This document shows, piece after piece, positions 6,635 through 17,847 of a stretch of 64,000 nucleotides of DNA. The stretch spans positions 62,001-126,000 of the forward strand of contig CALAJN010000004.1 in assembly GCA_937922675.1 (NCBI GenBank). Direction: 5' to 3'. This stretch comes from an uncultured Granulosicoccaceae bacterium (lineage in GTDB: Bacteria; Pseudomonadota; Gammaproteobacteria; Granulosicoccales; Granulosicoccaceae). The stretch's first letter is position 1, and each line of letters opens with the position of its first letter. Both the position numbers and the translations under genes were made by a program. The notes under the pieces were generated by a model that was given only the letters and a program-made list of their open reading frames with translations, made no database searches and was not told the origin of the DNA.

Positions 6635-7690
6635 TCAGTCCGGAAATGGCCCGGCGGTTGTCTCCTGGCCATCATCAAATGCCGCAAGGTAGTCGATCGC
6701 TATTTCGCGATAGTGATCCAAACCCTTGTAACTTGCGATCTCGGGCGGCAGGGTCTTGAGCACTCGGTGCATGCGCGTGGCCCATTTGGGGACGGTTGTC
6801 AGATCGCGCATCGACAGGAAGTAGCAACGGATCGGGAACAGAAGTGCGTTGGAGCGAGGCAGGCGCCAGAAGCTTTGCAGCTCGATACGCAAGAACAGTT
6901 TGTCAGCCACATTCTCGGGTGTGATGTGTGTGTTCTCTGGTCCCCATTTGTGGTAATTCTCGGGACTGGTATCCAGACGCGGGTTGACAGTCATGGTCCA
7001 GTTGAGGCGACGTGCGGGGTTGGCTTGTTGCACGGACAGGAGGTACTTCAGGGCGCGTGTAAATACACCGCGCTCATGTGCAAGAGGCACCGGGGCGTGC
7101 CACTCGAAAAAATTCATGCCGATGTCAAAGTCGAGTGACCAGTCAGCCTGAGTAGTAACGATGCCTGCATCCATCCACAAGTTGCCTGCACGCTCATCGA
7201 GTACACAGAAATCCCCTTGCGCCTGGCGCGTGATGTATTCGAGCGGGCCGTAGGGCAGTGTGGTCTCGTCTCCGAAGGTAAAGGTATCGTCGATACCGAG
7301 CGGTCGATTGATCCAGTGCCAACGATCGCCGTCGCGTTCGAGTGAAAACCACTCGGGATAGCTCGCCGCCTTGCAGCTCATCAATAGTTCCAGTGTGTCC
7401 CAGCCTGCGAGCGTCATGTGTGGCAGGCTCTGGCAGCGCAGAGGATCTTCATCGAGTACCAGTGCGCGATCACGCATCTCGGAGACGTAGTGTTCGTCTA
7501 CATCGATGGGCTCCTCAAAGGCGGTACCAGCGCGACCATCCTTGTGCAGCTCCATGTTGACCGCGTACATGTAAGAGTCCTTGTCGAACGGGAAGGGCGC
7601 ACGTAGAACGGTCTGTGGAGAGTTCTTGAAAGTGAAGTCGTCGCGAAAGGTCTCATCGCGAAACGGTAGTTCTCTTGCAGGCGTTGCCAT
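6635..7690 (-). CDS. dmmC: dimethylamine monooxygenase, heme subunit (DUF3445/HODM alpha-like)
   Basis: A 351-aa member of the DUF3445 family, the heme-PAS catalytic subunit of oxidative N-demethylases. It would oxidise dimethylamine to methylamine and formaldehyde with electrons from DmmB. The family is recognised from blocks such as LPHMTLAGWDTLELL, WSLDFDIGMNFFEWHAPVP, and LFLRIELQSFWRLPRSNALLFPIRCYF (split by eye). Gene order dmmD-dmmA-dmmB-dmmC matches the described dmmDABC cluster exactly. AGGGAA lies 7 bp upstream of the ATG. It is the last gene of the leftward block; no terminator hairpin is seen before the converging tex gene. Confidence 0.9.
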   Translation of the reverse strand: MATPARELPFRDETFRDDFTFKNSPQTVLRAPFPFDKDSYMYAVNMELHKDGRAGTAFEEPIDVDEHYVSEMRDRALVLDEDPLRCQSLPHMTLAGWDTLELLMSCKAASYPEWFSLERDGDRWHWINRPLGIDDTFTFGDETTLPYGPLEYITRQAQGDFCVLDERAGNLWMDAGIVTTQADWSLDFDIGMNFFEWHAPVPLAHERGVFTRALKYLLSVQQANPARRLNWTMTVNPRLDTSPENYHKWGPENTHITPENVADKLFLRIELQSFWRLPRSNALLFPIRCYFLSMRDLTTVPKWATRMHRVLKTLPPEIASYKGLDHYREIAIDYLAAFDDGQETTAGPFPD

Positions 7691-7749
7691 CTTGAATTCC
7701 CTGTTCGTTTACGTGTCTTCAGCGCGTCACACGCAAGTCTTGATCTCGC

Positions 7750-8724
7750 TCAACGATCCAGCACCACTGTCCCGCGACACCGCGAGACACAGGGCATGAT
7801 TTTCTCGCCCGAGGCCTTCTCATCATCCTCAAGCCAGTGATCCTCGTGCAGTAGTTCTCCGTCCACTGACAGGACGCGTGTTTCACACTGACCGCAAGCG
7901 CCGCCACGACAGAGATAGGGGGCATCGACTCCTGCAGCTTCAATCGCCTCGAGCATGGATTGCTCAGCACCGACTTCGATGGTCTTTCCGGATGCGCGCA
8001 GCTCCACATTGAAGGGTTCTCCAGATGAGGCCTTGGCGAAGTGCTCGTAGTGCACGTGGTTGTCAGGCCAACCGTGCTCGGCAGATTTTCTTAGTACCAG
8101 ATCAATCATCGGTGAGGGGCCGCAGACGTAAAGATGCGTTCCTGCTGGCTGCGAACTGAGTAGACGGTCGTAGTCAATCTGTTCATTATCTTCATCGGCA
8201 TACACATGGAAGCGCGATCCTAGACGGCTGGCAAGTTCTTCCAGGTAGACACCGAGTTCGCGACTGCGCATGCCGTAGTGCAGTTCGGCGTGGACCCCTG
8301 GCATCTGCGCAAGCTGGGCAGTCTGCGACATGAAGGGTGTAATACCAATGCCCCCGGCCAGCATCAGATGGCGCGACGCACGCTTGTCGAGCGCGAACAT
8401 ATTGCTTGGGTGCGTGATGCTCATTTTCATACCCGGTTTGACCTCGCGGTGCAGGTACAGCGAGCCCCCACGGCCCTGGTCGTCCCGCCGTATGCTGACC
8501 TGATAGTCGCGGGTGTCGAGCGGCGAGCTGGACAGTGAATAAGGTGAGCCCCGGAGTGTGTCGCCGTCCTGCATCTGAATGATGATATGCGCGCCACCGG
8601 AGAACGCCGGCAGGGGTTTGCCATCCGGACGTGCGAAGTGAAAACGCTTGATCAGCGAATTCAATTCAACAACCTCGGTAACAACGACATCGATAGCGCC
8701 GTGTAGCCGGCCGCGGGCACTCAT
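7750..8724 (-). CDS. dmmB: dimethylamine monooxygenase reductase subunit
   Basis: A 324-aa phthalate-dioxygenase-reductase-type protein: a flavin-binding domain and an NAD-binding domain (about 10-230), then a C-terminal plant-type [2Fe-2S] ferredoxin. The cluster ligands are Cys272, Cys277, Cys280 and Cys312 (C-x4-C-x2-C-x31-C). The flavin motif RGSPYSLSSSP and the nucleotide-binding LAGGIGITPFMS are clear. It passes electrons from NAD(P)H to the heme subunit. Its ATG overlaps the dmmA stop (ATGA), so the two are translationally coupled. The order flavin-NAD-ferredoxin is typical of the VanB/PDR group. Confidence 0.92.
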   Translation of the reverse strand: MSARGRLHGAIDVVVTEVVELNSLIKRFHFARPDGKPLPAFSGGAHIIIQMQDGDTLRGSPYSLSSSPLDTRDYQVSIRRDDQGRGGSLYLHREVKPGMKMSITHPSNMFALDKRASRHLMLAGGIGITPFMSQTAQLAQMPGVHAELHYGMRSRELGVYLEELASRLGSRFHVYADEDNEQIDYDRLLSSQPAGTHLYVCGPSPMIDLVLRKSAEHGWPDNHVHYEHFAKASSGEPFNVELRASGKTIEVGAEQSMLEAIEAAGVDAPYLCRGGACGQCETRVLSVDGELLHEDHWLEDDEKASGEKIMPCVSRCRGTVVLDR

Positions 8725-9323
8725 GTGAAAACCTCTTCTTTAGGCGGTATGTCGCTTGGATCCTCAGCGTTGATATTGACGCCTTGAAAGGCAGCATAAC
8801 GTCGTGAGTAGTGATCGCGCACCAGTAACAGAAGCCCGCAGTGGGCGCACGTGACAGGTTGCGTTGTTACACCCTCGGTGATGCCCTTGCAGTGCACGCA
8901 CTGCACGCGCCGTGCGAGTGAACCACGGTGTTCTGTCTGGATGGCCTCGAAGTCGATATTGGCTTCCATCGCGGTTTTCATGGCAAGGCCTATCAAGGAT
9001 TCACTGCCTGCCAAATAGATCTGTGTACCCATGTGCATGCGCTCGAAAGTACGCTTGAGTCGCGGCAGCATCGCAGCGATGCTTGGACCGGTATAAAAAC
9101 GCGCGGCACCCAGTGCCTCCAAGGTCACCGAGTGGTCAGCCTTGCCTGGTATGTAACAGATTTCGGCGTTGGGCAGAAAGCTGGTTGGCGCAGCCGTGGC
9201 CAGATCGAGCACGGCCTTGCCGCCATCGGCATCCGCGATTATCAGATGCGCAGGTGCCGTGGCAGGCTTGAGGGTACCGTACACCGGTCGGCTCTTTATC
9301 GATGGCTCGATAGCGGAACTCAT
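8721..9323 (-). CDS. dmmA: dimethylamine monooxygenase subunit DmmA
   Basis: A 200-aa protein of the family that accompanies the heme and reductase subunits. The visible feature is a C-terminal zinc-ribbon- or rubredoxin-like knuckle, C142-x2-C145 and C159-x2-C162. The rest resembles a nucleotide-binding reductase fragment (IYLAGSESLIGLAMKTAMEA). It is needed for DMA oxidation in described systems, though its chemical role is less clear than that of its partners. It lies 36 bp after dmmD and overlaps dmmB by 4 bp. The ribosome binding site is weak, which fits coupling. Confidence 0.88.
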   Translation of the reverse strand: MSSAIEPSIKSRPVYGTLKPATAPAHLIIADADGGKAVLDLATAAPTSFLPNAEICYIPGKADHSVTLEALGAARFYTGPSIAAMLPRLKRTFERMHMGTQIYLAGSESLIGLAMKTAMEANIDFEAIQTEHRGSLARRVQCVHCKGITEGVTTQPVTCAHCGLLLLVRDHYSRRYAAFQGVNINAEDPSDIPPKEEVFT

Positions 9324-9359
9324 ACGTCAGTCTCGAATGGTGTGGGGGTCACTTCGGGC

Positions 9360-10493
9360 TTAGCCCTTGGCAGTACGGCGTTCCTTATCGACATCATAAA
9401 AGGGCATCGGTGCCGCCTCACAATCTATCAAGCCGGAGCCGTTCTTGACCTGAAGTTGAGTGCCGGGTCTGGCGCAGTCGACTGGCATGCGCGCAATGGC
9501 CACATTGTGCTTGTTGAGTGGTGAGTACATACCGATGGTGGCAACACCCACCTGTTTGCCACCCTGCATCAGCGGAGCACCTTCTTCGGCGGGTTCCTCG
9601 CCGACAAGCTTGAGCCCGTAGATCTTGAAACGCTCGCGTCCTTTCAGGCGATAGTGTTCTTCGGCGCCGCGGAAACCTGTCTTGCCCTCACTAACCGTAA
9701 AGTCCAGTCCCAACTCCCAGAGAGTGTCGCCAGTGACGTCATCGTCGAAGGGGTACATGTCGGAGTTGTCGTAGGGGTAGAACAAGAGGTAGCTTTCGGC
9801 TCGCAAGAGGTCGAGCGTAGTGAAGCGCGTAGGGATGATGCCCATGGACTTGCCCTCGGATTCCAGGGTGTCCCAGATGTTGACCGCATCCTGACCGCGA
9901 CAAAATATCTCATAGCCCCGTTCACCTGTGTATCCGGTGCGCGAGATGGTGACCGGGTGACCGAACAGGCGAGTTGGCATGTGAGCGAAGTAGGGTAGAT
10001 GGCGAATACCCTCGACGTGCTTTTCCAGAAAATCCACCGCGAGTGGCCCTTGCAGTGAAATGTCATGCAGGTTGTCATCAAAGCGGATTGATACGTCACG
10101 ACCCATAGCTGCTCGCGTCAGTTGCTCGTGGCCCTCTCCTGAGCCATGCACAACCATGAAACTGTTGGGGCCCATTCGATAGATCACGCAGTCATCGATG
10201 AACTTGCCCGCGTCATTGAGCATGCACGCGTAGCTGGCCCGCCCGGGAGAAATCTTCTCGACGTCGCGCGTGGTGGCGCGATCAATGACGTGTGAGGCAT
10301 GAGGTCCTGTGATGTGGACCTTCTTCAAGCCGGAGACATCCATGAAGCCTGCCTTGGTGCGGATTGCGAGGTATTCCTCGGTTTGATCCTTGTCATAGCT
10401 CCAGGCGGTACCCATGCCGCTCCAGTCCTCGAGCTCGGATCCCATGGCTCTATGGCGATCAGCGATAGTGGAAAAGCGCCAGCTGGCAGTCAT
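9360..10493 (-). CDS. dmmD: GcvT-like tetrahydrofolate-dependent aminomethyltransferase
   Basis: A 377-aa protein of the GcvT/T-protein fold. DVSGLKKVHITGPHA near the N-terminus and the middle SRTGYTGERGYEIFC are hallmark blocks. In the dmm cluster this subunit is thought to bind THF and capture formaldehyde released from dimethylamine as methylene-THF. GGGAGAT lies about 5 bp before the ATG. It is preceded by a GC-rich hairpin that separates it from the small membrane gene. Similar THF-binding folds occur at the C-termini of Tdm and of the SoxA-like protein in this window. Confidence 0.9.
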   Translation of the reverse strand: MTASWRFSTIADRHRAMGSELEDWSGMGTAWSYDKDQTEEYLAIRTKAGFMDVSGLKKVHITGPHASHVIDRATTRDVEKISPGRASYACMLNDAGKFIDDCVIYRMGPNSFMVVHGSGEGHEQLTRAAMGRDVSIRFDDNLHDISLQGPLAVDFLEKHVEGIRHLPYFAHMPTRLFGHPVTISRTGYTGERGYEIFCRGQDAVNIWDTLESEGKSMGIIPTRFTTLDLLRAESYLLFYPYDNSDMYPFDDDVTGDTLWELGLDFTVSEGKTGFRGAEEHYRLKGRERFKIYGLKLVGEEPAEEGAPLMQGGKQVGVATIGMYSPLNKHNVAIARMPVDCARPGTQLQVKNGSGLIDCEAAPMPFYDVDKERRTAKG

Positions 10494-10563
10494 TGGATAT
10501 CTCCCTGTAGATGGATTAAACGCTTGTGGCGTTCGGTGCTGCGGTATTCAATTGCAAATATGA

Positions 10564-10587
10564 CCCGCCCTTGTGTTATCGGGCGGG
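10564..10587 (-). terminator. intercistronic hairpin between small membrane gene and dmmD
   Basis: CCCGCCC (10564-10570) pairs with GGGCGGG (10581-10587) across a 10-nt loop. No U-tract follows on the transcribed strand, so it is more likely an RNA-stability or partial-attenuation element than a full terminator. It sits inside a co-directional gene block. Confidence 0.5.
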
Positions 10588-10608
10588 CCAGTATTTCATG
10601 TGATTTGA

Positions 10609-10794
10609 TCAGTAACGGCGCTCGCGTTCGGCACGCTTGTAGGCGTGGCGTTCGTGTGCGATTCCGACAACCAGTGCCAGTGCACAAAGCCCCATCGAGA
10701 CCAGCAACCAGATCGGCTCCCAGGTGCCGCCAGCACCGACGTAGTAAGCGCCTTCCACACCCGCCCAGCCGGCTTCGGATATTGGTGAACCCAT
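10609..10794 (-). CDS. 61-aa single-span membrane protein between amt and dmmD
   Basis: A small protein with a Gly/aromatic N-terminus (AGWAGVEGAYYVGAGGTWEP), one hydrophobic span at about 29-45 and a basic tail ending KRAERERRY. By the positive-inside rule the C-terminus should be cytoplasmic. A strong ribosome binding site (AGGAGAT, 5 bp before ATG) supports it as a real gene. It is 21 bp after amt, in the same orientation. I do not know a family. Position suggests an accessory subunit or regulator of the ammonium/methylammonium transporter or a membrane tether for the demethylase; both are inference. Confidence 0.75.
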   Translation of the reverse strand: MGSPISEAGWAGVEGAYYVGAGGTWEPIWLLVSMGLCALALVVGIAHERHAYKRAERERRY

Positions 10795-10815
10795 AGTTAT
10801 CTCCTGTGTTGTGCC

Positions 10816-12243
10816 TTATGCAGGTTGGTTATAAGCGCGCCCAGCGTCGGCTGAGGCGCCGACATTGGCATTCGGCAGGCTACCCATGCCTTCTGGATAG
10901 GCCACTGAAGGAACCTTGACGATGTCCAGTCCGGCGAGCTCTGCTGCCTCCGGAACACGGAGCATGCCGACGAGTCGAAATAGCAAGGACAAGACATAGC
11001 CCGGTACAAAGCCAAGCAGAAACATCACACCGAGCCCAATGGCCTGACCGGTGAGGCTGGTCAGTGCAACGGTGCCCGCGTCACCGTAAACGGCGGGATA
11101 ACCCGAGGCAAAAATACCTACAGCGATCACACCCCAGGCGCCGACGGTGCCGTGTACTGTCACAGCGCCAACAGCGTCATCGACACCGATCTTCTCGAAG
11201 AATCTTGCCGAGATCGGCATGATGCACGCACCGACAAAACCAATCGCGAAAGCCATTGGCGGCCACCATAAATCGAGCCCTGCCGCGCAGGCTATGATGC
11301 CTCCGAGCGCGCCAGACATCATCCAGAACGGATCACGTGTAGTCAGCCAGGCGCCTATGATGCCGCCTGCAAAGCCCATAAGGATGTTGAAGGCCATGGC
11401 CGAGAGCGTCATTGGCGTGCCATAGATCGTGGTGAATTCTGTCGCTGACCAGGACCAGGCCTCTCCCGGGTAGATCGCACAGGCCATCAAGAAGCCCCAG
11501 AAGCCCACGATAATGGTCATCAGACCAACCAGTGTCATCGGCATGCTGTGGCCGGCGATATGGTTAGACGATCCGTCGCGGTTGTATTTACCGATACGCG
11601 GTCCGAGGTTGATCAACACGCCAAGCGCAAAGAAGCCTGCGACCATATGTACAACACCAGCAGCGCCGAAGTCGTGATAGCCGTATTTCTGCACCAGCCA
11701 TCCGTCCGCATGCCAGCCCCAGGCGGCGGCAAAGACCCAGGCAAATGCCCCCAGTGCAATAGCGAGGACAATGAAGGCAAAAAGTCGTATGCGTTCGATA
11801 ACAGCGCCAGACATGATCGATGCTGTGGTCGCAGCAAACAGTGTGAATGCACCCCAGAACACACCGGTAGCGTTGTCTGCGAGGTTGGGTCCCATGACTT
11901 CACCTACCGGGTTGGCTGCTGCCATGGCGTAGTCAAAGCCTGAGATCTCGATCGGACCAACAGCCATATCGAGACCTGTCGGGAAAGCCCAGTACACAAA
12001 CCAGCCAGCGTAGTAGAAGGCCGGCACCAGAAAGGCGAACGCGAGGATGTTCTTGATCCCGGAGGCGAGCACGTTTTTCTGTCGGGACGCGCCCATCTCG
12101 TAGGCAAGAAATCCAACGTGAATGAGTACCATCAAGGGGATGGACAGGTAGTAGTAGGTTTCCGCTGCCATCGTATTTCCGACGGCGTTAGCTTCGCTCA
12201 GAGCGGCGAGTTCCGCTGTAAGCCGGGCGACTTCTTCTTCCAC
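10816..12243 (-). CDS. amt: ammonium transporter (Amt/MEP/Rh family)
   Basis: A 475-aa channel with eleven hydrophobic helices. The pore twin histidines are His199 (in AAGVVHMVAG) and His364 (in VGAVTVHGTVG), matching AmtB His168 and His318. The start is GTG with CGGAGGT 9 bp upstream, so the N-terminal extension is genuinely translated. That extension (MEEEVARLTAELAALSEANA) is a short acidic heptad-like helix instead of the usual signal peptide. No glnK is adjacent. It lies between gmaS and the dmm genes, so it may import ammonium or methylammonium or recapture what leaks out; the substrate preference is inference. Confidence 0.93.
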   Translation of the reverse strand: MEEEVARLTAELAALSEANAVGNTMAAETYYYLSIPLMVLIHVGFLAYEMGASRQKNVLASGIKNILAFAFLVPAFYYAGWFVYWAFPTGLDMAVGPIEISGFDYAMAAANPVGEVMGPNLADNATGVFWGAFTLFAATTASIMSGAVIERIRLFAFIVLAIALGAFAWVFAAAWGWHADGWLVQKYGYHDFGAAGVVHMVAGFFALGVLINLGPRIGKYNRDGSSNHIAGHSMPMTLVGLMTIIVGFWGFLMACAIYPGEAWSWSATEFTTIYGTPMTLSAMAFNILMGFAGGIIGAWLTTRDPFWMMSGALGGIIACAAGLDLWWPPMAFAIGFVGACIMPISARFFEKIGVDDAVGAVTVHGTVGAWGVIAVGIFASGYPAVYGDAGTVALTSLTGQAIGLGVMFLLGFVPGYVLSLLFRLVGMLRVPEAAELAGLDIVKVPSVAYPEGMGSLPNANVGASADAGRAYNQPA

Positions 12244-12304
12244 GTTCTGATTACCTCCGATGGGTTTGATTCAAGGGGCCGTTCAGACAATTTTTGTTTG
12301 AGAT

Positions 12305-12326
12305 GGCCCCTCGCACCGGAGGGGCC
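12305..12326 (-). terminator. intercistronic hairpin between gmaS and amt
   Basis: GGCCCCTC (12305-12312) pairs perfectly with GAGGGGCC (12319-12326) across a 6-nt loop, 13 bp beyond the gmaS stop. There is no U-tract directly after it on the transcribed strand. It could protect the gmaS 3' end or partly terminate, which would lower amt and dmm expression relative to gmaS. Confidence 0.55.
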
Positions 12327-12339
12327 GGTGAGGGGTCGT

Positions 12340-13647
12340 TCAGCAGTCGAGCGTGTTGTCACGCTCCCACTGCGTAAGGGACTGGGAGAACTTGTTCCAG
12401 TCGTTGTGTTTGAGCTTTAAATACGCCTGACTGAACTCTTCGCCGAGCGCTGCCCGCAGTCCAGAGTCGGCCTCGAAGTGTCGCAGTGCATCGAGCAGGT
12501 TTAGCGGGAGCTTCTTGGCATCAGTGACCGTATGCCCCTCTGTGTACATATCAATATCAAGCCTGTCCCCAGAGGGAATACTGTTGTCTACACCGTCCAT
12601 ACCTGCTGCAAGAATCACCGCCATGAGCAGATAGGGATTGGCCGCTCCATCGGGCAAGCGAAGCTCGATACGCCCATCGTCCGGGATACGGATCATGTGG
12701 GTCCGGTTGTTGCCTCCGAACGTGATCGAGCTGGGTGACCAGGTGGCGCCTGAGAGCGTGGGCGGGGCGTTGATGCGCTTGTAGGAGTTGACCGTGGGGT
12801 TGGTGATCGCGGCGAGCGCCTCACCATGAGCAAGCAGGCCTCCGATGAAGTGATAGGCCTCAGCCGACAGACCAAGTTCACCTGAGTCATCACCGAAGCG
12901 GTTGGTCTTGCCGTCGTTGCTCCACACCGACACGTGCACATGGCACCCGTTGCCGGTCAGATGACTGAAGGGCTTGGGCATGAAGGTCGCCCGCAAGCCA
13001 TGGTTCTCTGCAATGGACTTGACCATGAACTTGAAAAAGCTCAACTGATCAGCGATGGTCAGCGCGTCGTTGAAATCCCAATTGATCTCGAATTGCCCAT
13101 TGGCGTCTTCGTGGTCATTCTGGTAAGGCCCCCAACCAAGCTCTGTCATGGTTGAGCAGATCTCGGCAATGACATCGTAGCGACGCATAACAGCCGATTG
13201 GTCGTAACATGGCTTCTCCTGAGTATCGCGCTCGTCGGAGATATCACTGCCGTCTGCGTTGATCAGATGAAACTCCGGCTCCACACCCGATTTCATCAAC
13301 ATACCCTTGGCAGCGGATTGTTCCATCAGACGCTTTAATACGTTGCGTGGGCCTTGTGCTACTGGCTCGTCGTTCATCCATGGGTCACCGGCTACCCAAG
13401 CCACTTCCGGTTTCCAGGGGAGCTGGATGACGGATGCGGGGTCAGGCTTGACGAACATGTCAGGATGGGCAGGCGTGAAGTCCAGCCATGCGGCAAAGCC
13501 TGCAAAGCCTGCACCACTCTTTTGCATGCCGGACGCCGCTTCTGCAGGTACCAGTTTGGCACGTTGAGTGCCGAACAAATCGGTGAAGTTGAACAGGAAA
13601 TACTTGACGCCGCGTTCCTTCGCGTAGGTTCCGAGATCCTGTGTCAT
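12340..13647 (-). CDS. gmaS: gamma-glutamylmethylamide synthetase (glutamine synthetase family)
   Basis: Joins methylamine to glutamate with ATP to give gamma-glutamylmethylamide. The 435-aa protein has the glutamine-synthetase core: NDHEDANGQFEINW (metal/substrate glutamates), NGCHVHVSVW (ATP/metal His), and RIELRLPDGAANPYL near the C-terminus. Its first half closely follows remembered GmaS (FTDLFGTQRAKLVPA, GAGFAGFAAWLDFTPAHPD). It could be called GlnT in older annotation, but its place directly after mgsABC fits GmaS. AAGGCAGG precedes the ATG by 9 bp. Confidence 0.93.
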   Translation of the reverse strand: MTQDLGTYAKERGVKYFLFNFTDLFGTQRAKLVPAEAASGMQKSGAGFAGFAAWLDFTPAHPDMFVKPDPASVIQLPWKPEVAWVAGDPWMNDEPVAQGPRNVLKRLMEQSAAKGMLMKSGVEPEFHLINADGSDISDERDTQEKPCYDQSAVMRRYDVIAEICSTMTELGWGPYQNDHEDANGQFEINWDFNDALTIADQLSFFKFMVKSIAENHGLRATFMPKPFSHLTGNGCHVHVSVWSNDGKTNRFGDDSGELGLSAEAYHFIGGLLAHGEALAAITNPTVNSYKRINAPPTLSGATWSPSSITFGGNNRTHMIRIPDDGRIELRLPDGAANPYLLMAVILAAGMDGVDNSIPSGDRLDIDMYTEGHTVTDAKKLPLNLLDALRHFEADSGLRAALGEEFSQAYLKLKHNDWNKFSQSLTQWERDNTLDC

Positions 13648-13704
13648 GCTGTTTACCTGCCTTGAGCGTTGGTGTGAATCGTTTTAACGAGCTTTGGATT
13701 GTCT

Positions 13705-15045
13705 TTAGCTGACCGGAGTCCCCGGCACCCAGGCAGTACCCGCCAACGGGACCTTGGCCATCGCTGCCGCTTCTACTGTCAAAGCGCACAAGTCCTCGGG
13801 TTCAAGATTGTGCACATGGTTCTTGCCACAAGCTCTTGCTATGGTCTGCGCCTCCAGAGTCATGACTCCAAGATAATTGGCCAGTCGTTTTCCGGCAACC
13901 ACTGGATCCAGTCTACCGGCGAGTTCAGGGTCTTGTGTAGTGATTCCTGCTGGATCCCTGCCTTCGTGCCAGGCATCATAGGAACCGGCGGTTGTGCCAA
14001 GTGCGTTGTATTCGGATTCCCAGCGAGGATCGTTGTCACCCATGGCAACCAGAGCTGCGGTACCGATGGACACGGCATCCGCACCTAGCGCCATGGCCTT
14101 GGCGACATCGGCGCCATTACGAATGCCGCCCGAGACCACCAGCTGCACCTTTCGATGCATGTCGAGCTCCTGCAACGCTTGCACAGCAGGGCGAATGCAG
14201 GCAAGTGTAGGCATGCCGACGTGTTCTATGAACACGTTCTGCGTCGCGGCGGTCCCACCTTGCATACCGTCGAGAACAACAACGTCTGCCCCTGATTTAA
14301 CAGCGAGTGCTGTGTCGTAGTAGGGCCTTGATCCACCGATCTTGACGAAGATCGGTTTTTCCCCGCGTGTGATCTCGCGTAGCTCCAGGATTTTTATCTC
14401 CAGATCATCGGGGCCGGTCCAATCCGGGTGTCTGCACGCCGAGCGTTGATCAATACCTTCGGGTAGGGAGCGCATGCCAGCGACGCGTTTGTTGATCTTT
14501 TGCCCGAGCAGCATGCCGCCACCGCCGGGTTTGGCTCCTTGACCGACGACTATCTCGATAGCATCTGCCTTGCGCAGATCATCAGGATTCATGCCGTAGC
14601 GTGACGGCAGGTATTGGTAGACCAGCAGCTTGGAATGACCTCGCTCTTCCTGGGTCATGCCACCGTCGCCAGTCGTCGTTGACGTACCTGCCGCGTTGGC
14701 ACCACGCCCCAGCGCTTCCTTGGCCTGCCCGGAGAGTGAGCCAAAGCTCATGCCGGCAATGGTGATCGGGATTTTCAGTTGTAGTGGCTTGCTGGCAAAG
14801 CGATCGCCAAGGGTCACCTCGGTGCCGCAGCGTTCGCGGTAGCCTTCCAGGGGATAGCGTGAAATGGACGCGCCAAGAAACAACAGGTCGTCAAAATGCG
14901 GCAATGCGCGTTTGGCACCTGCACCTCTTATATCGTATATGCCGGTGCTGGCTGCACGACGGATTTCCGAGAGGGTGTATTCGTCGAAAGTGGCCGATGC
15001 GCGTGCGGCGGCTCTCGGTTGCGAGTTGTGCTTCTGCTCGGCCAT
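13705..15045 (-). CDS. mgsC: N-methylglutamate synthase subunit C (FMN-binding glutamate synthase domain)
   Basis: A 446-aa protein with the GltB-type TIM barrel that binds FMN: MSFGSLSGQAKEALGRGANA, a phosphate-binding GGIRNGADVAKAMALGADAV, and DGMQGGTAATQNVF. With MgsA and MgsB it moves the methylamino group from gamma-glutamylmethylamide to make N-methylglutamate. It starts 2 bp after the mgsB stop. The same trio is called GlxBCD in rhizobia, where the function is less defined; the gmaS-dmm-tdm context decides for Mgs. Confidence 0.92.
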   Translation of the reverse strand: MAEQKHNSQPRAAARASATFDEYTLSEIRRAASTGIYDIRGAGAKRALPHFDDLLFLGASISRYPLEGYRERCGTEVTLGDRFASKPLQLKIPITIAGMSFGSLSGQAKEALGRGANAAGTSTTTGDGGMTQEERGHSKLLVYQYLPSRYGMNPDDLRKADAIEIVVGQGAKPGGGGMLLGQKINKRVAGMRSLPEGIDQRSACRHPDWTGPDDLEIKILELREITRGEKPIFVKIGGSRPYYDTALAVKSGADVVVLDGMQGGTAATQNVFIEHVGMPTLACIRPAVQALQELDMHRKVQLVVSGGIRNGADVAKAMALGADAVSIGTAALVAMGDNDPRWESEYNALGTTAGSYDAWHEGRDPAGITTQDPELAGRLDPVVAGKRLANYLGVMTLEAQTIARACGKNHVHNLEPEDLCALTVEAAAMAKVPLAGTAWVPGTPVS

Positions 15046-15047
15046 GA

Positions 15048-15731
15048 TCAGTACGCGTCCGCCTTGTCGATGTCAAAGTGATAGAGCTGTCGAGCGGAGC
15101 CGTAGCGCTTGAAGCTTTTTGGGTCTGCGTCCATACCAGAGCGCTGCAGCAAATTAGTCAGCGTCGCGAGGTGTTCAGGCGTCATTTCCTTCTCGATACA
15201 ATCAGCGCCGAGACTGTCTACCGAACCTGCCACGTAGAGCTTGGCCTCATATATGGAGTCGCCCAGCGCATCTCCGGCATCGCCGCATACCACCAGATGT
15301 CCAAGCTGTGCCATGAAGCCTGACATGTGCCCGACCGAGCCGCCTACCACGATATCAATGCCCTTCATCGAGATGCCACAGCGCGATGAGGCATCGCCCT
15401 CTATAACCAGTAGCCCGCCGTGTCCGGTTGCGCCGGCTGACTGGCTGGCGTTGCCTGTGACACGTACGCTGCCGCTCATCATGTTTTCTGCAAGCCCGAC
15501 CCCTGCGTGACCATGTACGGTGATGTCTGCCTCCTTGTTCATTCCACCACAGTAAAAGCCGACATGCCCCAGTATGTCTACCGACATCGGTTTGTCGAGC
15601 CCGCAAGCAATCGCATGTTGCCCCATCGGATTGGTAACGGTCCAGGCGGTCTTGTTGCTCCCGTCCTCAAGGTCCTGCAACGTCGAATTGACGGCGCGCA
15701 GGCCAAGGGCTTGCAGGTCGAGTGTATTCAT
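15048..15731 (-). CDS. mgsB: N-methylglutamate synthase subunit B (GltB C-terminal beta-helix domain)
   Basis: A 227-aa protein built of G-x-x-G-x-G repeats (VHGHAGVGLAENMMSGSVRV, VVGGSVGHMSGFMAQLGHLV) that form the right-handed beta-helix of the glutamate synthase C-terminal domain. It is a structural subunit of the MgsABC complex. Its ATG overlaps the mgsA stop (ATGA), and mgsC follows after 2 bp, so the three subunits are tightly coupled. Confidence 0.92.
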   Translation of the reverse strand: MNTLDLQALGLRAVNSTLQDLEDGSNKTAWTVTNPMGQHAIACGLDKPMSVDILGHVGFYCGGMNKEADITVHGHAGVGLAENMMSGSVRVTGNASQSAGATGHGGLLVIEGDASSRCGISMKGIDIVVGGSVGHMSGFMAQLGHLVVCGDAGDALGDSIYEAKLYVAGSVDSLGADCIEKEMTPEHLATLTNLLQRSGMDADPKSFKRYGSARQLYHFDIDKADAY

Positions 15732-16675
15732 GCGGCACTCCCGGCAACTTGCGCGACGGGTGTATCAATGTTCATGTCGCCGCTGCCCCAGCTGTACACG
15801 GTGGCGGGCTTTGGCTCCCAGATCTCGGCATTGTCGCTACCGGGCAAGGTAGCGATGGCCCGAAACTCGGTTGCCATGGCAACCCAGTCATCGGTTTCGG
15901 CCAACACGGCATGCTTGCAGGCAATCGGATCGCGCACTACGGCAAAACCGTCACTTGTGCCGACACAGAAGGTGAAGAAACCGTCGAGGTCGTCGAGTGC
16001 ATCTTCGAGCGCCTGTTTCAGAGAAACGCCGTTGCGCAGCTTCCACGTCAGATAGGCAGCAGCGACTTCGCTATCGTTTTCACTACTGAAACTTACGCCC
16101 TGACGTATAAGCTCCTCGCGCAAGCGATTGTGATTGGACAGCGACCCGTTGTGCACAAGGCATAGGTCCGCACCGGTAGCGAAGGGGTGAGACCCTGCCG
16201 TTGTCACGGCGCTTTCGGTTGCCATCCGTGTGTGCCCGATCATGTGCCGCCCGGCAGCTGATTCGAGATCAAAGCGCGAGTAGACGTCCTCGGGCAATCC
16301 GGTTTCCTTGTAGATCTCCACGCTCAGTCCGCTGCCGACCAGCCGAACATCTGGCGCCTTCTCAGCCAGCCAGTGACCGACCGCAGCTTCGTCGGCGTTG
16401 GTGATCAGCAAGGCATGTGTGTCGCGCTGCGTAATGTTCGCATTAGCGTTCAGTGCCTTACCCAGGTCGTTGGCGAGTGTTGTCCAGTCATGCTCGGGAT
16501 CATCGTGAGCGAGTGAGAACTTCAGCTCCCCCGCGGCTACCGGGTCACGGTAGAGAGCAACACCTGCTGAGTCCGGTCCTCGGCTCGTCATCTCGACCAG
16601 CATGGGTTTGAACAGCCGCCCAAGTTCCGGGTATAGCGCTTCGTTTTTCAGGTAAAGCCCGACGATTCCGCACAT
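15728..16675 (-). CDS. mgsA: N-methylglutamate synthase subunit A (class II amidotransferase)
   Basis: A 315-aa Ntn-type glutamine amidotransferase domain. The ATG at 16675 is chosen because it gives MCGIVGLYLK, placing the catalytic Cys at position 2 as required after Met removal. An in-frame extension of 23 residues would bury that Cys. Other family blocks are ESAVTTAGSHPF and LCLVHNGSLSNHNRLR. It would release methylamine (or ammonia) from the gamma-glutamyl donor for use by MgsC. It is the first gene of a ten-gene leftward block and faces tmoX across a shared control region. Confidence 0.93.
   Translation of the reverse strand: MCGIVGLYLKNEALYPELGRLFKPMLVEMTSRGPDSAGVALYRDPVAAGELKFSLAHDDPEHDWTTLANDLGKALNANANITQRDTHALLITNADEAAVGHWLAEKAPDVRLVGSGLSVEIYKETGLPEDVYSRFDLESAAGRHMIGHTRMATESAVTTAGSHPFATGADLCLVHNGSLSNHNRLREELIRQGVSFSSENDSEVAAAYLTWKLRNGVSLKQALEDALDDLDGFFTFCVGTSDGFAVVRDPIACKHAVLAETDDWVAMATEFRAIATLPGSDNAEIWEPKPATVYSWGSGDMNIDTPVAQVAGSAA

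Positions 16676-17847
<1,172 letters not shown>

Follow-up and report, generated by a model that had tools for sequence, protein, structure and literature searches.

The window is the whole stretch of 64,000 nucleotides analysed here. Positions 10609 to 10794 of its minus strand hold an ATG-started open reading frame that encodes a protein of 61 amino acids, MGSPISEAGWAGVEGAYYVGAGGTWEPIWLLVSMGLCALALVVGIAHERHAYKRAERERRY. Read on the plus strand, the interval does not give this protein; the earlier note on this DNA, which placed a membrane protein here, had given no strand. The minus-strand sequence directly 5' of the ATG is GCACAACACAGGAGATAACT. The features that surround and make up the small gene are the following.

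6635 to 9323, minus strand: DmmA, a DmmB-type reductase and an HODM-like DmmC; local context only.
9360 to 10493, minus strand: DmmD-type GcvT protein; the next gene here, not a constant neighbour.
10564 to 10587, minus strand: hairpin between the small gene and dmmD, with a 7-bp CCCGCCC/GGGCGGG stem; terminator-like, with a poor T tract.
10609 to 10794, minus strand: small gene for a 61-aa one-span membrane protein, identified by its translation, its homologues and purifying selection in the family.
10657 to 10713, minus strand: predicted membrane span, residues 28-46, from hydropathy.
10726 to 10767, minus strand: N-terminal motif W-x-G-V-E-G-A-Y-Y-V-G-A-G-G, from conserved columns; predicted to be periplasmic by charge bias.
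10801 to 10805, minus strand: Shine-Dalgarno sequence AGGAG, 6 nt from the ATG, read from the sequence.
10816 to 12243, minus strand: Amt of the branch that bears small genes, 475 aa, with a GTG start; the partner gene, assigned by PF00909, tree and residues.
12340 to 16744, minus strand: type III glutamine synthetase (GmaS-type) and MgsABC-like glutamate-synthase-type genes, for which we take the gmaS and mgs names to apply; local context only.

The small gene starts 21 nt after the end of amt and ends 115 nt before the start of dmmD, with all three genes on the same strand. This is the placement between ammonium channel and demethylase that the earlier note had described, and the ribosome site bears out its strong binding site. 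The single membrane span and basic tail are likewise as it proposed. Residues 28-46 form the only hydrophobic span of the protein (Kyte-Doolittle mean 2.5 in a 19-residue window), with no Lys or Arg before it and six after it.

The protein belongs to no Pfam, NCBIfam or PHROG family at the curated cut-off or at E <0.001, and as far as Pfam and NCBIfam go its description as an undescribed protein stands. Variants of it from other genomes (10+5 searched against Pfam, 10+2 against NCBIfam) gave no match, or weak matches under every cut-off. A PDB sequence search with the small protein returned nothing credible.

Searches that start from the small protein find few relatives. Five of 369 genomes of the same class match it at E <= 0.01, the window's own included. 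The real relatives besides that one are in G051 and G295 (47% and 52% identity), where the small gene adjoins amt directly, downstream; the other two matches (G055 and G195, E 0.006) are located in unrelated frames and were set aside as chance. The loci of the two relatives contain tmm, a TMAO-demethylase-type gene, a GmaS-type synthetase and glutamate-synthase-type genes, with no adjoining dmmD. Single-sequence searches with the small protein gave two loci only in genome contigs and no relative in viral contigs, and tblastn against plasmids gave no match. A peptide-pattern scan of the genome contigs added a Hyphomicrobiaceae contig with the amt-small pair and zero methylamine markers in its 10 kb.

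Because the small protein is short and diverges fast, its relatives were sought by way of Amt instead. Across the phylum, the Amt of the window matches 14 of 398 genomes with E <= 1e-70; with E <= 1e-60 it matches 34 of 148 genomes in the order of G662 and 10 of 99 in the family of G541. These genome matches, together with plasmid records (11 found, 7 opened) and the loci of the first relatives, supplied a set of 57 distinct Amts that score at least 294 bits against the window Amt.

Every one of the 57 is followed on the same strand, after 2-114 nt, by a reading frame of 54-71 aa with one hydrophobic span. An extended set gave the same result, with a small gene just downstream of all 67 branch Amts (66 regions). 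The extension consists of larger regions, including five Amts initially without loci, and of Amts met in the short-form profile search described below. A motif filter caught 63 of the 67 small genes, and the remaining four (L077 and L157-L159) had been established in the examination of the 57 (as L077 and L107-L109). From the 57 only identical Amt ends were removed, and from the 67 nothing; close relatives were kept, so the pairings are not all independent events.

In the seven plasmid records that were opened, the small gene is annotated every time and always as "hypothetical protein". The earlier note had called it short enough to be missed in annotation, which is only partly right; in these records the gene has not been overlooked, and its name says nothing of what it is. 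One of the plasmid loci, L077 (LT969519.1, the 555-kb plasmid of Pseudomonas aeruginosa RW109), has the amt-small pair with dmm-type genes nearby on the opposite strand.

Classical Amts from the same organisms provide a control. Fifteen genomes with branch Amts also hold classical Amts (27 paralogous reading frames), and 21 of these 27 were testable, with at least 160 nt of sequence downstream. A lenient filter, which accepts any frame of 45-90 aa with some hydrophobicity, was positive behind 2 of the 21 as against 24 of 24 branch Amts. Both frames behind classical Amts lack a ribosome site and any likeness to the small protein, which leaves zero likely small-gene homologues downstream of the 21 testable paralogues.

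At least three of these 21 classical Amts have a PII gene at the position in question, and a fourth (L043) was recognised by eye. In the branch the small gene occupies that place, and instead of a subunit it might encode a switch: a membrane-bound analogue of GlnK or sP36 that binds Amt only under some nitrogen state, to block the channel or release it. The accessible text of PMC10714827 also describes a 61-aa Amt inhibitor in Methanosarcina mazei. We consider such a switch rather unlikely, however: with a gene that always shares a unit with amt, a conditional inhibitor fits less well than a constant partner, and a soluble domain or modification site is not evident in the small protein.

The small proteins come in two forms. 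The short form, to which the window protein belongs, has 54-68 aa and mostly ends in (H)E...Y/basic, and the long form has 58-83 aa and mostly carries W-A-V-D-L-x-x-[IV]-G-x-[IV]-Y-P. Common to both are an N-terminal W, G-A-x-[YF], glycines, an acidic residue, the span and a Glu after the span, which is invariant in the alignments of the two forms (29 and 17 rows). One locus, L137 (G794:C2:2214500-2233500), has tandem branch Amts with the short form behind one and the long form behind the other.

The two forms did not match in the first profile comparison (probability 0.7%), for which the long-form set was narrower. Once that set was broadened, they matched over 49 columns (probability 86%, P 5e-6), and against the 29-row set P was 4.6e-5. 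The 49-column match counters the view that the long form, seen at 70-71 aa, is unrelated to the short one. On these alignments the two forms are likely, not certainly, one family, since membrane spans inflate profile scores. If they are two families, the pairing of the type seen in the window holds for all 43 Amts in the half of the tree that includes the window Amt.

The search can also be run in reverse, from small-protein profiles to their genomic neighbours. The short-form profile was run against 289 alphaproteobacterial genomes and the long-form profile against 289 genomes of that same class. The short form gave matches in 10 genomes, and all seven with E <= 7e-8 lie directly behind a branch Amt. 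The other three (L125-L127, E >= 2e-4) fall within long, unrelated frames that have no Amt beside them and were rejected.

The long form gave matches in 28 genomes. Of the 26 with E <= 5.2e-6, 25 lie behind a branch Amt, and the 26th (L174) is at a contig end, so that the figure becomes 25 of 25 among testable matches; L197-L198, at E ~5e-4, are spurious matches inside long unrelated frames with no Amt. Neither profile search found a credible, testable homologue away from amt. A lack of homologues near amt or dmm genes in other genomes would have refuted the earlier note; it is not refuted on this count, as every credible, testable homologue adjoins amt.

Two of the profile-matched genomes, G1134 and G977, consist of a single contig each (1.2 and 1.4 Mb); genomes of this size occur in streamlined marine bacteria. 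A contig that is classified as viral ends in another amt-small pair (L117:5007-6668, IMGVR_UViG_3300032134_000127). The neighbours of the pair by eye are an integrase-like frame and a TrmH-type host gene, and the pair may be the host flank of a prophage.

The small gene is a real gene. It is under purifying selection, with Ka/Ks of 0.05-0.52 in close pairs (18 of 19 computable), and a Shine-Dalgarno-like motif lies 5' of 56 of the 57 small genes. A spurious frame, or a hydrophobic toxin-like peptide that lies there by chance, would be short and hydrophobic with a basic tail, as this one is. That explanation deserves hardly any credence against purifying selection, homologues at a fixed position across alpha- and gammaproteobacteria, and an RNA family search of window positions 9000-13800 that gave no match.

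Lys and Arg are more numerous after the span than before it in 55 of the 57 small proteins (mean 4.2 vs 0.3). By the positive-inside rule, the predicted topology is therefore N-out/C-in. An AlphaFold model of a read-through chain of Amt and small protein, built from four sequences, reaches a mean pLDDT of 54, which is too weak for an interface; in the same weak model, residues 26-60 of the small protein form one helix.

The Amts that bear a small gene also stand apart from other Amts. In a tree of 85 Amts, comprising the 57 and 28 without a small gene (the 27 paralogues and E. coli AmtB), the branch that parts the two groups has support of 100/100 and a length of 2.5. The presence of the small gene maps on the tree as one change, at a place where, as the program warns, long branches meet.

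The window Amt reaches 194.6 bits against PF00909, above the cut-off of 23.2. It remains below the cut-offs of NCBIfam TIGR00836 amt (199.7 vs 343.3) and TIGR03644 marine amt (164.5 vs 514), and four of four further branch Amts likewise fall below the NCBIfam Amt cut-offs (five of five with the window Amt). The nearest solved structures by sequence are 6eu6 and 8qj3/8qpf.

Pore residues are given here in what we take to be AmtB mature numbering, with presumed roles as the Phe gates (F107 and F215), W148, D160, the twin His (H168 and H318) and the recruitment site Ser219. F107, W148, D160, F215, H168 and H318 are kept in all 57 branch Amts. Ser219 is typical of classical Amts, though not required for the superfamily; it is Cys in all 57, while the classical paralogues have Ser in 26 of 27 and Thr in one. 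The position of Asn216 holds Leu (43) or Tyr (14) in the 57, and that of Trp212 is Phe throughout. Judged by these sequence characters, the Amts with a small gene are an unnamed Amt subfamily, found mostly in methylamine loci.

The genome of the window also encodes an Amt fused to a long C-terminal part (L047, G000:C10:336737-337885), with similar proteins in G509 and G741. The tail of this part is EAL-like by eye, and these are possible sensor Amts.

The methylamine linkage is frequent and not constant. At least one of ten methylamine markers flanks the pair in 55 of 66 regions and none in 11, where flanks of about 1 to 10 kb mean that absence is not proof. The small gene is followed by dmmD in 16 of 66 regions only. 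This speaks against the earlier note's assignment of the gene to an amine block and against a dmm operon gene defined by a conserved amt-small gene-dmmD order, which that note had proposed to check.

In 26 of 57 cases a terminator-like hairpin occurs in the 130 nt that follow the small gene, as against 0 of 57 in the amt-small gap and 1 of 57 in sequence put through a simple mononucleotide shuffle. The contrast with the gap is favoured by its being shorter than the downstream stretch. In the window, the hairpin at 10564-10587 is possibly a partial terminator that separates amt-small from dmmDABC.

The same counts bear on whether the small protein could be a membrane anchor of methylamine enzymes (Dmm or GmaS), with amt as a bystander. 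The marker in 55 of 66 flanks is what such an anchor would lead one to expect; beyond this, nothing was found in favour of the anchor that the earlier note had listed. This reading is highly improbable: amt and the small gene stay together in the 11 regions without a marker, dmmD is next in only 16 of 66, and zero credible, testable homologues lie away from amt.

Since the small gene lies directly behind a branch Amt wherever examined, its product has probably gone unrecognised as a subunit or regulator of one Amt branch. The "channel subunit or small regulator" of the earlier note is thus the part of its proposal that fits best, with a specific Amt branch as the constant neighbour. A dedicated accessory subunit of this one branch of ammonium channels has, in our estimate, a probability of about 65%. 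In full, it is best read as an accessory subunit, N-out/C-in and obligate, of an Amt subfamily with a link to methylamine. A translation-coupled regulator would equally give constant adjacency to amt, and no natural Amt-small fusions occur among the 57 Amts examined.

As an accessory subunit, the small protein would be expressed from the second gene of an amt-small unit, presumably co-transcribed, with translation from a strong ribosome site of its own. It would insert as a single helix, with the W-x-G-x-x-G-A-x-Y-x-G-x-G segment in the periplasm and the (H)E...Y/basic tail in the cytoplasm. Most likely it would then bind Amt and pack on the outside of the trimer. There it might set the stability, gating or substrate preference of Amt, as AcrZ does on AcrB. 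Substrate tuning is our favoured guess, because pore changes are fixed in the branch and the branch is linked to methylamine genes.

Another model is that the small protein only aids folding or insertion of Amt, or its escape from proteolysis, as an assembly or anti-FtsH factor like MgtU or MgtS. The position directly after amt would suit this, and the accessible text of PMC10710835 gives precedents among transporters. Still, the conserved periplasmic motif and the invariant Glu after the span suggest a more specific contact, and we regard a pure assembly factor as quite improbable.

An accessory subunit allows a wider proposal, which is offered tentatively and which we think doubtful as a whole. 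An Amt subfamily that is large, unnamed and present in marine and other proteobacteria would be a two-subunit channel, with three Amt and one to three small subunits. The small subunit, along with the pore changes Ser219Cys and Asn216Leu/Tyr, would tune it for the methylated ammonium of trimethylamine and dimethylamine catabolism. It would be the first Amt/MEP/Rh channel known to have an accessory subunit that is integral. Few membrane proteins have been studied as well as Amt channels, which to our knowledge are regarded as homotrimers under the control of soluble PII proteins. If the branch needs a second integral subunit, transport assays and complementation tests with such an Amt alone would have dealt with half the machine. 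The tie to methylamine genes in 55 of 66 regions gives the branch a bearing on how marine bacteria take up, retain and release ammonium and methylamine.

The literature within reach, which excludes most subscription papers and supplements, holds no description of an amt-linked small gene. In the accessible parts of two papers on dmm genes, amtB is named in a cluster legend (PMC5520151) and amt is a recurrent neighbour (PMC7574528); the small gene is not mentioned with amt in those parts of either.

The known system closest in size is sP36 of Methanosarcina mazei. According to the accessible text of PMC10714827, this 61-aa protein binds AmtB1 and GlnK1 and is proposed to inhibit AmtB1 by mediating the AmtB1-GlnK1 interaction. 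Under nitrogen limitation it is found in the cytoplasm, and an upshift sends it to the membrane. Both proteins have 61 residues and are tied to an ammonium transporter, and the match in length is a coincidence as far as known. As described there, sP36 is set apart from the small protein, which has a membrane span and a gene fixed behind amt.

The small protein is comparable in kind with short partners of other transporters. AcrZ (49 aa) on AcrB and MgtS/MgtU on MgtA/MgtB bind their transporters and alter specificity or stability, and AcrZ lies as a single helix against its transporter, like the single membrane helix from a short reading frame seen here; in the accessible text of PMC10710835, no such partner is described for an Amt.

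GlnK, a PII protein, is likewise small and encoded next to amt, and it controls AmtB. It is soluble and has about 112 aa, whereas in the studied branch a small membrane gene takes that place.

A final comparison is with Rh proteins, which have an extra N-terminal helix (M0) beside 11 Amt-like helices. If the small protein packs on Amt, both would place an additional helix beside the common fold. The helix of Rh proteins is part of the same chain, whereas the small protein would supply it in trans.
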